DNA of 64,000 bases from Acidobacteriota bacterium. GTDB lineage: Bacteria > Acidobacteriota > Holophagae > Holophagales > Holophagaceae. The notes below the pieces were generated by a model. It did no database searches. It was not told the origin of the DNA and saw nothing but the letters and a program-made list of their open reading frames with translations. The stretch's first letter is position 1. Each line of letters starts with the position of its first letter. The DNA is taken from assembly GCA_016195985.1 (NCBI GenBank), contig JACPYP010000031.1, positions 1-64,000 of the forward strand. The letters run 5' to 3'. Both the position numbers and the translations under genes were made by a program. Positions 3,559 through 9,866 of the stretch are shown here, piece after piece.

Positions 3559-4833
3559 ATGACACCCGCCCGCCTGCTTCGTCGCCTGGTGCTGCTCGAG
3601 GAGGGCGAAGCCCCGGGGCTGCTCTGGTCCACGCTGTACTTCTTCCTCCTGTTCTTCGGCTACTACCTGGTGCGCCCGGTGCGCGAGGCCATCGGCATCG
3701 CCCGGGGGGCGGACAAGCTGCCCTGGCTCATGACCGGCACCCTGTTGGTCATGGTGCTGGCCAACCCGGCCTTCGCCACCCTGGTGTCGAAGCTGCCGCG
3801 GCGGCGTTTCATTCCGCTGGCCTACCGGTTCTTCGCGGTGAACATGCTGGCCTTCTTCCTGGCCTTCCGGTTCCTGCCCCATCACGGCGGCGCGGCCCTG
3901 GGCTACGGCTTCTACATCTGGCTGAGCGTCTTCAATCTTTTCGTGGTGTCCGTGTTCTGGGGCTTCATGTCCGATGTGTGGTCCGAAGGCCAGGGCAAGC
4001 GGCTCTTCGGCTTCATCGCCACCGGCGGCACCCTGGGGGCCATCGCGGGCGCGGCGCTCACGGGGGTGCTCACCAAGGGCTTCGCCCTCGGCGCCATGAA
4101 GGTGAAGGTCGACCCGCTGTCGCTGCTGCTGGTTTCGGCACTGACGCTGGAGGCGGCGGTGTTCTGCGTGAAGCGGCTGATGGTCGTCTTCCATGTGGGA
4201 GAAGAGGCCCACGGCGCGAAGGAGCCGGGCCCCGGCCCCCTGGAGGGCCTGCGTCTCATCGCCACTTCGCGCTACCTGCAGCTCATCTGCCTCTACATCC
4301 TGCTCTACACCATCACCAGCACCTTCCTCTACCTGCAGCAGGGCAGCATCGTGGAGCGCACCTTCGCGGGCACCGCGGCCCGCACCGCAGCCTTCGCCCG
4401 CATCGATCTCTGGGTGAACGTGCTCACGCTGGTGACGCAGGTGCTCCTCACGGGCCGCCTCATCACGGCCCTGGGCATTCCCGCGGTGCTGTCCATCCTG
4501 CCAGTGCTCACGCTGGCGGGCTTCGGCGCCTTGTGGGCCTGGTCCACCTTCGGCGTCATGGCGCTCTTCCAGGTGCTGCGCCGGGGCCTGCACTACGCCC
4601 TGGACCGCCCGGCCCGCGAGATCCTCTACATTCCCCTCGGGCCGGAAGAGCGCTACAAGGCCAAGCCATTCATCGACACGTTCATCTACCGGGGCGGGGA
4701 CATGATGGGCGTTTGGGCTCCCACGGCGCTGGTGGCCCTGGCCATTCCGGTGGGTCTGGCCTCCGTGGGATGCTCGGGTCTGTGGTGGGCCAGCAGCCTG
4801 GCTCTGGGGCGCCGGGTGCGATTGGGAGGTTGA
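3559..4833 (+). CDS. MFS / NTP:NDP exchange-like membrane transporter
   Basis: Polytopic protein; FGYYLVRPVREAIG and KAKPFIDTFIYRGGDMMG resemble the ATP/ADP translocase-like MFS family. Confidence 0.65.
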   Translation: MTPARLLRRLVLLEEGEAPGLLWSTLYFFLLFFGYYLVRPVREAIGIARGADKLPWLMTGTLLVMVLANPAFATLVSKLPRRRFIPLAYRFFAVNMLAFFLAFRFLPHHGGAALGYGFYIWLSVFNLFVVSVFWGFMSDVWSEGQGKRLFGFIATGGTLGAIAGAALTGVLTKGFALGAMKVKVDPLSLLLVSALTLEAAVFCVKRLMVVFHVGEEAHGAKEPGPGPLEGLRLIATSRYLQLICLYILLYTITSTFLYLQQGSIVERTFAGTAARTAAFARIDLWVNVLTLVTQVLLTGRLITALGIPAVLSILPVLTLAGFGALWAWSTFGVMALFQVLRRGLHYALDRPAREILYIPLGPEERYKAKPFIDTFIYRGGDMMGVWAPTALVALAIPVGLASVGCSGLWWASSLALGRRVRLGG

Positions 4834-4865
4834 CCTTTTTTCCACCATCCCGGATGATGGCGGTC

Positions 4866-4994
4866 ATGCCCTTCACGCCGGACAGCCTCGCCTTCGCCCC
4901 GCAGATGCCTGCGGCCCTGGGCCTGCCCGTGTCCGGCATTACCCCCGTGTCTGGCATTACCACCGGTACCAATAGGGTCGCGCGGGGCACCTGA
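4866..4994 (+). CDS. thrL: Thr/Ile-rich leader peptide of the thr operon (start uncertain: 4866, 4905 or GTG 4929)
   Basis: In-frame ...LPVSGITPVSGITTGTNRVARGT*; Thr at 4941, 4959, 4962, 4968, 4989 and Ile at 4938, 4956; ends just before a strong terminator upstream of thrA. Confidence 0.75.
   Translation: MPFTPDSLAFAPQMPAALGLPVSGITPVSGITTGTNRVARGT
4981..4988 (+). promoter_or_regulatory. Putative antiterminator arm of thr attenuator
   Basis: CGCGGGGC is fully complementary to GCCCCGCG (5018-5025), the 5' arm of the terminator, and identical to the 3' arm (5034-5041). Confidence 0.7.
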
Positions 4995-5016
4995 CCTGAT
5001 CAGCACACTCAGACTC

Positions 5017-5046
5017 AGCCCCGCGCCTCACACCGCGGGGCTTTTT
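5017..5046 (+). terminator. Rho-independent terminator/attenuator upstream of thrA
   Basis: AGCCCCGCG-cctcacac-CGCGGGGCT followed by T-run. Confidence 0.85.
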
Positions 5047-5074
5047 CGTTTCGACCCACCTTGCCGGAGCGCCC

Positions 5075-7573
5075 TTGTCTTCTCAGCCCACCCACGTCTC
5101 TTCCCAGTCCATCCGCGTGATGAAATTCGGTGGCACCAGCCTCGCGGACGCGGACCGCTTCCGCAACGTGGCCGGCCTGGTGGCCCAGGCCTGCGCCGCG
5201 CACCGCATCTGCGTGGTGGCCTCGGCCATGGCTGGCGTCACCAACCTGCTGCTGCACGGCGGCCACGTGCCCAGCCGCGAGGAGGCCGATGGGTTGCTGC
5301 TGGCCTTCCACGGGCGCCACGCCCAGGTGGTGGCGGACCTGGCGGCGGATCTGGGCGCGGAGGCCGAAGCGGTCCGCGTCGAGCTGGATGCCCTGGAGAC
5401 TCTGGGGCGCCGGCTGCTCCACGGGATGGCGCTGCTGGAGGAGGGCCCGCCCTCGGTGCTGGCCCAGGTGTCCAGCCTGGGGGAGCGCGCCTCCTGCGCC
5501 ATCCTCACGGGCCTGCTGAAGGCCCGGGGGCTTCAGCCCCGCTTCCTCGATCCCGTGGAGCACGTGCGCGTGGAGGGCGATCCGCTGCAGGCGCGGCCCC
5601 GCATGGCGGACATCGAGGCGCGCTTCGCCGCAGTGAAGGCCGGGCCCGGAAACCTCTGGGTGCTGCCGGGCTTCTTCGGCGGCGACGGCCAGGGGCGCAT
5701 CCTCTCCCTGGGCCGGGGCGGCTCCGACCACAGCGCCGCGCTCGCGGCCGCGGCCCTCGGCGCCGACCTGCTGGAGATCTGGACGGACGTGGCCGGCCTC
5801 TACAGCGCCGATCCCTCCCTGGTACCCGACGCCTTTCCGCTGCCCGAGGCCAGCTTCGAAGAGGCCATGGAGCTTTCCTACTTCGGCGCCAAGGTGCTGC
5901 ACCCCAAGACCATCCCGCCCGTGCGTGAGCGGGGCATCCCCGTGCGCGTGTGCAGCAGCTTCGATCCCCAGCACCCGGGCACGGTGATCCGCGAGGCGGT
6001 GCCGCCGCCGCCCAGCGGCGTGCGGGGCATCTCCTTCCTGCGCGGCCTTTCGGTGGTGAACCTCACGGGTCCGGGCATGCCCGGCGTGCCCGGCATCGCG
6101 GGCCGCGTGTTCGGCGCCCTGGCCCGCAAGGGCATTTCCGTGGTGCTCATCACCCAGAGCTCGTCGGAACTCTCCATCTGCTTCGCCGTGCGGCGCGCCG
6201 ATGGGCCCGGGGCGGTGGAGGCCATCCAGGAGGCCTTCCCCGCGGAGCTGGCCGCCGGCTTCCTCGATCCCGTGGATCTGCGCCCGGGACTCGCGGTGCT
6301 CAGCATCGTGGGCGACGGCATGCGCACCCGGCCGGGCATCGCGGGCACCTTCTTCGACGCCCTTTCCGAAGTGGGCTGCAACGTGGTGGCCATCGCCCAG
6401 GGGGCCAGCGAGCGCATCATTTCCGCGGTGGTGGACGAGGCCGACGGCGCCCGCGCCATGGCCCACATCCACCGCCGGTTCTTCCAGGCCAAGGTGCTGC
6501 TGGATGTCCACCTGCTGGGCGCGGGCAACGTGGGCGGCAGCCTGTTGGGCCAGATCCAGCGCCAGCACGCCAATCTGCTGGCCCAGGGGCTGGATCTCCG
6601 CGTGGCCACGGTGGCCACGAGCCGCCGCATGCACATCGACACCCACGGCATCGACCTCGCGCACTGGCGTGAGGCCCTGGCCCAGGGTGGGCCAACCGAT
6701 TTGGACCACCTGCTGGACAAGGTGCGCAGCGGCCCGCCTTCCATGTCCGTGCTGGTGGACTGCAGCACCAGCGGCGACCTCGCCGCCCGCTACCTCGACA
6801 TCTTCGACGCGGGCTTCCACGTGGTGGCCGCCAACAAGAAGGCGAACAGCAGCACCCAGGCCTTCCACCGCGGCCTCCGGGAGCACGCCACGCGCAAGGG
6901 CCTGCGCTTCCTCTACGAGGCCAACGTGGGCGCGGGCCTGCCCATCATCGACACCGTGAAGAACCTGGTCATGACCGGGGACCGCGTGCTGCGGGCCGAG
7001 GGCATCCTGTCGGGCTCCATGTCCTACATCCTGGGCCTGCTGGGCGAAGGCGTGGCCCTTTCCGAAGCCGTGAACCGCGCCAAGGAAAGCGGCTTCACGG
7101 AACCGGATCCCCGCGACGATCTCAGCGGCATGGACGTGGCGCGCAAGCTGCTCATCCTGGCCCGGGAAATGGGCATGGAGCTGGAACTGGAGGACGTGGC
7201 GGTGGAGGGCCTGCTGCCGCCGGATTTCGACGCCAGCGGCAGCATCGACGCCTTTTTGGCCCGCCTGCCCCAGCTCGACGGGGCCTTCGCCCAGCGGCTG
7301 GCGGCGCTGAAGGCCGAAGGGAAGACGCTGCGCTACGTGGGCTCCCTTTCGGACCAGGGATGTCGCGTGGGCCTGCTGCCCGTGGACGCGGAGCACCCGC
7401 TCATCGCCATCAAGGGCGGCGAAAACGCCCTCACCCTGCTCACGGAGCGCTACCAGCCCCACCCCATGGTCATCCGCGGCTACGGCGCGGGGGCCGAAGT
7501 CACCGCCGCGGGCGTGCTGGCGGACATCCTGCGCCTGGTGCCGCCGGGGGCCCGGCCCGCGAGGAGGCTGTGA
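5075..7573 (+). CDS. thrA: Bifunctional aspartate kinase / homoserine dehydrogenase I
   Basis: [15 protein letters not shown] kinase motif; ACT domains; homoserine dehydrogenase C-terminus; TTG start with GGAG upstream. Confidence 0.92.
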
Positions 7574-8589
7574 TGGCGGGTGTTTCAGAGGGATTTTCGA
7601 AGGGACTGGCGGCCTACGCCCCCGCCAGCATCGGCAACGTGGCCGCGGGCTTCGACCTGCTGGGGGCGGCGCTGGCGCCCCTGGACGGCACCCTGCTGGG
7701 CGATCTGGTGCATGTGGCTCCCGCCGAAGAGGACACCTTCCAGATGACCGGCCCCTTCGCCTCGGCCCTGGCCGGCGACAGCCGCCCCAACCTGGCGCTG
7801 CGGGCCAGGGATCTTTTCGTGGAGGCGGCGCGGGCGGGTGGGCGGGAGGTGGGTCCCTTCGCCATCACCCTGGACAAGCGCCTGCCCGTGGCCAGCGGCC
7901 TGGGTTCCAGCGCCAGTTCCATCGTGGCCACCCTGGTGGCCTTGCAGGCCCTCTGCGGCGATCCGCTGAGCGGATCGGACCTGCTGGATCTCGCAGGCCG
8001 GGCCGAGGGCCTCACCAGCGGCGGCCGGCACCTGGACAACGTGGCGCCCTCCCTGCTGGGGGGACTGCAGCTCATGGTGCCGGGCCGCGAGGGCGCCCCC
8101 GCTACGCGGCGCCTGCCCTGGCCTTCGGACCTGCTGCTGGTGGTGGCGCATCCGGAATTCTGGCTGTCCACGGCGCAGAGCCGCGGCGTGCTGCCCGAAC
8201 GCCCCGGCTGGACCGAGGCCATCGATTTCGCGGGCAACCTGGCCAGCCTGGTGCAGGCCCTGCACAGCGGCGACCGAGCCCTGCTGGCGCGCTGCCTGCG
8301 CGATCCCATCGTGGAAGCGCACCGCGCGCCCCTGGTGCCGGGCTTCGCCGGCGTGAAGGCCGCGGCCCTGGATCAAGGCGCCCTGGGCTGCAGCCTGTCG
8401 GGCTCGGGCCCCTCAGTGTTCGCGGTGGCGGACGGCGAGGCCCGCGCCGAAGCCGTGTGCGGCGCCATGCGTGCCGCCTTTGCCCAGGCGGGCCTGGGAT
8501 CCCAGGGTTGGGTCTGCGCCCTGGATCCCGAAGGCGCCCGCGTGCTCACCCCTGGTTCGCGACACCCCTGGCGGGAGGCCCACCCATGA
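7573..8589 (+). CDS. thrB: Homoserine kinase
   Basis: GHMP motif LPVASGLGSSASSIVA; overlaps thrA stop. Confidence 0.92.
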   Translation: MAGVSEGFSKGLAAYAPASIGNVAAGFDLLGAALAPLDGTLLGDLVHVAPAEEDTFQMTGPFASALAGDSRPNLALRARDLFVEAARAGGREVGPFAITLDKRLPVASGLGSSASSIVATLVALQALCGDPLSGSDLLDLAGRAEGLTSGGRHLDNVAPSLLGGLQLMVPGREGAPATRRLPWPSDLLLVVAHPEFWLSTAQSRGVLPERPGWTEAIDFAGNLASLVQALHSGDRALLARCLRDPIVEAHRAPLVPGFAGVKAAALDQGALGCSLSGSGPSVFAVADGEARAEAVCGAMRAAFAQAGLGSQGWVCALDPEGARVLTPGSRHPWREAHP

Positions 8590-9866
8590 AGCTCATCAGC
8601 ACCCGCACGCCCATCGAGGCATCCACCGGGAGCGTCTCCTTCCAGGAAGCGGTTCAGGCGGGCCTGGCCCCGGACGGTGGCCTCTTCGTGCCGGTGGCCA
8701 CCCCCCATTTCGATGATGTTGCTGATTTGCTAAGGGCGGATTTCCCAGAGCGATCCATGGAAATCCTCCATCGGCTGCTGGGGGATGAGCTGCCCCGTGC
8801 CGTGATCGAGGACCTGGCGCGGTCCGCCTTCACCTTCCCGGCCCCCCTGGTGGAGGTGGACGGAGGGATCTCAGCCCTGGAGTTGTTCCACGGCCCCACC
8901 CTGGCCTTCAAGGATTTCGGCGCGCGCTTCCTGGCCCGGGTGTTGGCCCTGGGGGCGGGCGGCCAGCCCCGCACGGTGCTGACGGCCACCTCCGGCGACA
9001 CCGGCGCCGCCGTGGCCAGCGCCTTCTACGGCCTGCCCGGCGTGCGGGTGGTGGTGCTGTATCCGGCCGGCCGCGTGTCCCCCATGCAGGAACGGCAGTT
9101 CGCCACCTGCGGCGGCAATGTGCTGGCCCTGGCCGTGGAGGGCGTCTTCGACGACTGCCAGAGGCTGGTGAAGGGGGCCTTCGAGGATGCAGAGCTGACG
9201 ACGCGGCTGGGGCTCACCTCCGCCAACAGCATCAACATCGCCCGCCTGCTGGCCCAGACGCTCTACTACTTCGAGGCCGCGGCCCAGGCGGAGCCCGGTC
9301 GGCCGCTGGTGGTGTCCGTGCCCAGCGGCAACTTCGGCAACCTCACGGCGGGCCTGTGGGCCCAGCGGATGGGCGCGCCCGTCCAGGCCTTCGTGGCGGC
9401 CACCAACGCCAACCGCGTGGTGCCCGACTACCTGGATACGGGCAGGTACCAGCCCCGGCCTTCGGTGGCCACGCTGTCCAACGCCATGGACGTGGGCTCG
9501 CCCAGCAACTGGGAGCGCATCTTCGCGCTGTTCGGCGGCGATCACGGCGCCATGGTCGAGTCCCTGCGCTGGGGCAGCTGCACCGACGCCGAGACCGAAC
9601 AGGTGGTCATCGACCTCGACCGCCGGGGCTACCTGGCCGATCCCCATGGTGCCGTGGCCTACCAGGTGCTGCGGTCCAACCTGCGCGAGGGTGAGCAGGG
9701 GGTGTTCCTGGCCACGGCTCACCCCGCCAAGTTCCGGGAATCCCTGGCTCCGGCGCTGGGCCGGGAAATCCCGCTGCCGAAAACCCTGCTCGATCTGCTG
9801 GACAAGCCCCTGCTGTGCGAACCCCTTCCTGCGGACCAGGGCGCCCTCCGGCGGCGCCTGCTTTGA
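8586..9866 (+). CDS. thrC: Threonine synthase
   Basis: FHGPTLAFKDFGARF PLP motif; ATGA overlap with thrB. Confidence 0.92.
   Translation: MKLISTRTPIEASTGSVSFQEAVQAGLAPDGGLFVPVATPHFDDVADLLRADFPERSMEILHRLLGDELPRAVIEDLARSAFTFPAPLVEVDGGISALELFHGPTLAFKDFGARFLARVLALGAGGQPRTVLTATSGDTGAAVASAFYGLPGVRVVVLYPAGRVSPMQERQFATCGGNVLALAVEGVFDDCQRLVKGAFEDAELTTRLGLTSANSINIARLLAQTLYYFEAAAQAEPGRPLVVSVPSGNFGNLTAGLWAQRMGAPVQAFVAATNANRVVPDYLDTGRYQPRPSVATLSNAMDVGSPSNWERIFALFGGDHGAMVESLRWGSCTDAETEQVVIDLDRRGYLADPHGAVAYQVLRSNLREGEQGVFLATAHPAKFRESLAPALGREIPLPKTLLDLLDKPLLCEPLPADQGALRRRLL

Follow-up and report, generated by a model that had tools for sequence, protein, structure and literature searches.

A conserved, apparently leaderless thr attenuator with a predicted amino-acid response in front of thrABC in Holophagaceae (Acidobacteriota)

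The window analysed here is a stretch of 64,000 nucleotides from a soil or sediment bacterium. On its forward strand it carries the threonine genes thrA, thrB and thrC, each of which scores above the cut-off of its curated NCBIfam model. The first gene, thrA (5075–7573; NF006959, 958.6 bits against a cut-off of 726), encodes a bifunctional aspartate kinase/homoserine dehydrogenase I and has a TTG start. It is followed by thrB (homoserine kinase, 7573–8589, TIGR00191), whose start overlaps the thrA stop, and by thrC (threonine synthase, 8586–9866, TIGR00260), whose start overlaps the thrB stop. By eye, GGAG at 5066–5069 is the likely Shine-Dalgarno sequence of thrA, and most same-genus relatives carry CGGAG upstream of the thrA ATG. 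Matches to ThrA in named genomes come from Geothrix (G. fermentans, G. limicola, G. campi, G. terrae and others) and from Holophagaceae MAGs, nearly all of them with an identity of 81–86%; judged by this identity, the source lineage is a Geothrix-type member of Holophagaceae, Acidobacteriota. The plasmid collection was also searched and gave no match. Upstream on the same strand lies a transporter-like gene (3559–4833), whose match to the NTP/NDP exchange transporter superfamily is weak (39.8 bits, under the cut-off).

In front of thrA, direct reading reveals a short ORF of 42 codons plus stop on the forward strand, from the ATG at 4866 to the TGA at 4992–4994, encoding MPFTPDSLAFAPQMPAALGLPVSGITPVSGITTGTNRVARGT. 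Near its end, between 4938 and 4970, are two Ile codons (ATT at 4938 and 4956) and four Thr codons (ACC at 4941, 4959, 4962 and 4968). The ORF is followed by an intrinsic terminator (5017–5046), with a 9-bp stem (5017–5025/5034–5042; z = -2.9 for the stem region), an 8-nt loop and a T run at 5042–5046. The sequence CGCGGGGC at 4981–4988 is identical to 5034–5041 and complementary to 5018–5025. In the folding, positions 4980–4988 within the last leader codons (region 2 hereafter) pair with 5018–5026, which yields a predicted antiterminator hairpin (4980–5026) made of GCGCGGGGC..GCCCCGCGC and of internal pairs between UGA/CUGA and UCAG/UCA. The first-pass annotation of this DNA had placed the leader ORF, the Ile/Thr codons, the repeat arm and the terminator at these positions, and we have re-read all of them on the sequence, base for base.

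We have compared the upstream DNA of all genomes with a bifunctional ThrA in a family sample of 78 genomes, 57 in number. The arrangement of a short ORF with a Thr-rich end, a terminator and then thrA is found in 56 of them, the window's own included, covering 8 genera. The lone exception (G054) has thrA directly behind another gene and no leader. The leaders vary from 23 to 48 codons in length, and each of them stays in frame from its ATG up to a stop adjoining region 2. What the first-pass annotation had named as evidence against attenuation was a terminator kept in relatives that have lost the ORF or the complementary arm; we have observed the opposite, since Thr-rich ORF, complementary arm and terminator are retained jointly in the 56 genomes. 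Each of 31 Geothrix-genus genomes has a single match, just 5' of thrA, to a degenerate motif that starts at the leader stop and reaches the terminator arm. Its reversed pattern, used as a control, has 0 matches in the Geothrix-genus genomes, and the motif itself is not found in the genus members without thrA. Extending the search to the order has added no further cases, the order being represented by this family alone in the sample. As a separate observation, five genomes of the same genus (G014, G023, G031, G032 and G035; 96–100% complete) have neither a bifunctional thrA match nor the thr leader motif, and show aspartate-kinase-type matches only. It is possible that they have lost threonine synthesis or that they use separate divergent enzymes.

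The promoter is conserved together with the leader. The window has a -35 element TTGACC (4830–4835) and a -10 element GATGAT (4853–4858) with a 17-nt spacer, and the transcription start is predicted at 4865/4866. TTGAC lies 35 or 36 nt 5' of the leader ATG in 52 of the 56 genomes (L006 was scored by its first TTGAC; the contig of L056 begins too near the leader for the -35 box to be visible). At the -10 position most same-genus genomes have GATGAT, GAAGAT or GAAAAT, and in most of the 56 a -10-like hexamer ends 6–7 nt 5' of the ATG. Shine-Dalgarno-like bases between -15 and -3 of the leader ATG are present in 0 of the 56 genomes. Since ordinary promoter geometry applied to this TTGAC/-10 spacing lets the transcript begin at the ATG or one base earlier, the leader ORF is apparently leaderless, with the A of its ATG or the base before it as the first RNA base. 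The coincidence of ORF start and predicted transcription start had been missed in the first-pass annotation.

To describe the codon content, we have used 23 leaders that are less than 72% identical to each other, and defined the control region as residues -19 to -5 from the leader end. The share of Thr is 32.5% in the control region and 6.2% in the N-terminal parts of these leaders, a 5-fold enrichment (odds ratio 7.3, Fisher p 6e-22, a value that ignores relatedness among the leaders). With the same reservation on p, the corresponding proportions are 8.7% and 4.1% for Ile (p 0.01), 7.2% and 3.4% for Met (p 0.02), and 4.9% and 2.5% for Asn (p 0.08). Read in its two alternative frames, the same leader DNA gives 7.6% and 1.2% Thr. 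Across the whole set, Thr is present in 56 of 56 control regions and Ile is missing from 8, so the constant signal, as read from the codons, is Thr, with Ile and Met secondary. The earlier description of a Thr/Ile leader thus holds for Thr, but not for Ile as an essential part. On codon choice, we have also noted that Ile in the control regions of the 56 leaders is written ATT 51 times and ATC 22 times, compared with 2 and 33 in thrA, and that AAT, ACT and GGT are likewise over-used there. A bias of substitutions among codon positions was tested for and is absent; as substitutions fall evenly, the leaders have no synonymous-site signature. This is not surprising in a leader peptide, because the frame and the type of a few codons should be all that matters.

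The secondary codons raise the question of which amino acids are sensed. ThrA also supplies homoserine for Met, and a variant of attenuation can be considered in which the leader responds to several homoserine-derived amino acids (Thr, Ile and Met) instead of Thr with Ile. The enrichment of Met in the control region is 2.2-fold, equal to that of Ile, and certain relatives have leaders with Met and Thr in which Ile is scarce or absent, such as MTGMTGMT in L015 and L018 and MTMIMTT in L050. On the other hand, the Met p value is just 0.02 from leaders that are not independent, and the window's own control region is without Met, the sole internal Met of its leader lying outside. Overall, we consider this broader sensing a tentative possibility.

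The window's leader has a further feature, an 18-bp tandem duplication on the forward strand (4926–4961) that encodes PVSGIT twice, the units 4926–4943 and 4944–4961 agreeing at 17 of 18 positions. It had been proposed to be a duplicated sensing motif. We have found the duplication in none of the other family leaders, and even the nearest genome, with a ThrA 95% identical, reads RSFGITSGTTTTNTVARGT at this region. A conserved sensing motif is therefore ruled out, and the repeat is private to the window's species.

The codon pattern also bears on a simpler explanation of the terminator, namely that it merely ends transcription of the transporter-like gene and that the ORF is open by chance. That gene does lie on the same strand and ends 183 bp 5' of the terminator. 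However, promoter, ORF and antiterminator persist beside different upstream genes (in the Geothrix-genus genomes L017, L021 and L027 the upstream gene differs and direct reading still finds the leader), the Thr codons are enriched in a single frame, and the leader motif follows the presence of thrA. This explanation is hardly credible in our view.

To evaluate the RNA switch, we have folded one stretch per genome, beginning 24 nt before the leader stop and ending at the loop of the terminator. The 5' arm of the terminator is paired with the last codons of the leader in all of the 56 genomes; an antiterminator z below -1 is reached by 52 genomes, and one below -2 by 41. The window's stretch folds at -25.5 kcal/mol, compared with -17.4 for shuffled sequences (z -2.5), and its antiterminator stem is prolonged by further pairs around the leader stop codon. 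When the part expected to be covered by a ribosome at the stop codon is removed, the terminator is the sole strong fold left. Over its whole length, the leader has a minimum-energy fold that is unremarkable (z -1.4). Region 2 itself differs by genus, reading CGCGGGGC in g1, CGGGGGU in g3, GCGGGGACGG in g9, GCGGCCGG in g6 and GGGCUGGUC in g4. Drawing one genome per genus each time, native pairs of region 2 and terminator arm are stronger than deranged between-genus pairs in 300 of 300 draws; by this comparison of sequences, the two elements co-vary between genera. In g7 and a few others, cross-genus pairs or shuffles do at least as well as the native antiterminator pairing.

A terminator/antiterminator pair by itself would fit an RNA that senses a metabolite or tRNA independently of translation, i.e., a riboswitch or T-box. 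Yet no Rfam riboswitch or T-box reaches threshold, nor does Rfam reveal a conserved aptamer or specifier loop, and the primary sequence from the ATG to region 2 is poorly conserved, with codon type and frame alone being kept. An Rfam search of the leader stretch at relaxed E-value has returned Thr_leader and unrelated weak matches, and nothing else. We therefore hold a translation-independent sensor to be highly improbable.

Based on the above analyses, we interpret the locus as a ribosome-mediated transcription attenuator of the thrABC operon, with a probability of roughly 0.93. A short ORF contains a cluster of codons for the operon's amino acid, and that amino acid is the product of the downstream thrABC, as identified with NCBIfam. 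A terminator stands between the leader ORF and the first structural gene in 56 genomes. A mutually exclusive antiterminator, with a 5' arm that a ribosome at the leader stop could cover, is indicated by computed pairing and co-variation. These parts and their joint conservation are observed, and the stalling, the switching and the amino-acid response are modelled on thr and trp attenuation biology. Leader and terminator very probably switch thrABC on at low threonine. In this scheme, RNA polymerase would start at the leader ATG or one base earlier, judged from promoter spacing, and therefore the ribosome would load on a leaderless mRNA. If charged tRNA-Thr were scarce, the ribosome would stall on the control codons at 4938–4970; scarcity of tRNA-Ile would be secondary, as perhaps would that of tRNA-Met in relatives. 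The stalled ribosome would leave region 2 (4980–4988) exposed for pairing with the 5' arm of the terminator (5018–5026), so that the antiterminator would form and thrABC would be transcribed. If the control codons were read fast, the ribosome would reach the stop at 4992 and cover region 2, the terminator would form, and transcription would stop near 5046.

Attenuation would not exclude an additional action in trans of the attenuated leader RNA or its peptide, like that of rnTrpL/peTrpL in Sinorhizobium (PMC10117765 and papers cited there). With this precedent, the predicted product, a small terminated leaderless RNA of ~180 nt, would suit such a role. Against it, conservation of the peptide sequence is not seen outside the control codons, and we regard a trans function as improbable.

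The apparently leaderless design is not unique to thr, because trpE has the same layout in the same genome. Upstream of trpE, TTGACA and a -10-like box are directly followed by an ORF encoding MLLSFPVPCQGLSSEAWWWRMGSDGSLREA, which includes WWW, and then by a terminator made of AGCCCGACC..GGTCGGGCT and a T run. This predicted leaderless trp attenuator lies outside the window, on the reverse strand (G000:C18 ~478281–478600, locus L174). The upstream regions of ilvB and hisG in the same genome show no attenuator, both genes being directly behind other genes. Beyond the family, we have sampled ~40 other Acidobacteriota with bifunctional ThrA across many families, and in most of them a leader before thrA is not seen. 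By eye and pattern, Thr-rich leader ORFs occur in the four f24 genomes L093, L103, L104 and L105, e.g., MLIVPVRPTMTRTTTITTGDSSGG; in all four the leader end GCGGATGA is exactly complementary to TCATCCGC within the next terminator. L107, from another family, has an MTSTTTT leader and a terminator found in the same manner. In these five genomes the leader ORFs are very near their -10-like boxes, and the antiterminator arm overlaps the stop. A lineage-wide variant may be conceived, in which Acidobacteriota use leaderless thr (and trp) attenuators, and the thr leader of Holophagaceae responds jointly to the supply of Thr, Ile and Met, the codon identity drifting among homoserine-derived amino acids with the frame and the RNA switch kept. 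We offer this extension as speculative, and rather doubt it.

A survey in 2010 had reported that almost no predicted attenuators of Acidobacteria had an associated function (PMC2965389); the thr leader is one with a clear predicted function. Because it is kept in 56 genomes that include cultured Geothrix species, it is amenable to testing. In the apparently leaderless form, the ribosome would have to load on a bare 5' end with the polymerase still nearby, and the leader may be a convenient system for studying how leaderless initiation keeps up with transcription. In the open-access literature we have found no previous account of an acidobacteriotal thr attenuator, and the open-access papers on Geothrix and attenuation all concern environmental attenuation.

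Overall, what we describe is a real, conserved thr attenuator, apparently leaderless by its promoter spacing and with a predicted amino-acid response. Its mechanism class is known. Leaderless attenuators are already known from Actinobacteria (PMC8079986) and Sinorhizobium (PMC10117765). In Streptomyces lividans, the leader peptides leuL, trpL, ilvL, metL and thrL are transcribed leaderless, although its thrL precedes thrS, with two Thr codons and no clear terminator (PMC8079986). Sinorhizobium meliloti trpL/rnTrpL, translated leaderless according to Ribo-seq, shares with the predicted thr leader attenuation and an ORF at the mRNA 5' end, but it senses Trp, is 14 aa long and belongs to another phylum (PMC10117765). 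Rfam Thr_leader (RF00506), the family of enterobacterial thrL, is the best Rfam match over exactly the leader stretch, though at 25.7 bits (E 0.009 in a 421-base search) it is below the gathering score of 55. The enterobacterial thrL peptide has 21 aa. The peptide here has 42, is predicted to be leaderless without a Shine-Dalgarno sequence, holds the antiterminator arm inside its last codons, and has Met codons in many relatives. The two are alike in the Thr/Ile-rich leader peptide, the competing antiterminator and terminator, and a thrABC operon with bifunctional ThrA. By this analogy, the leader would work like enterobacterial thrL without being an RF00506 member by score, and the logic of thr attenuation appears to extend to an unrelated phylum distant from the enterobacteria, where it looks leaderless.
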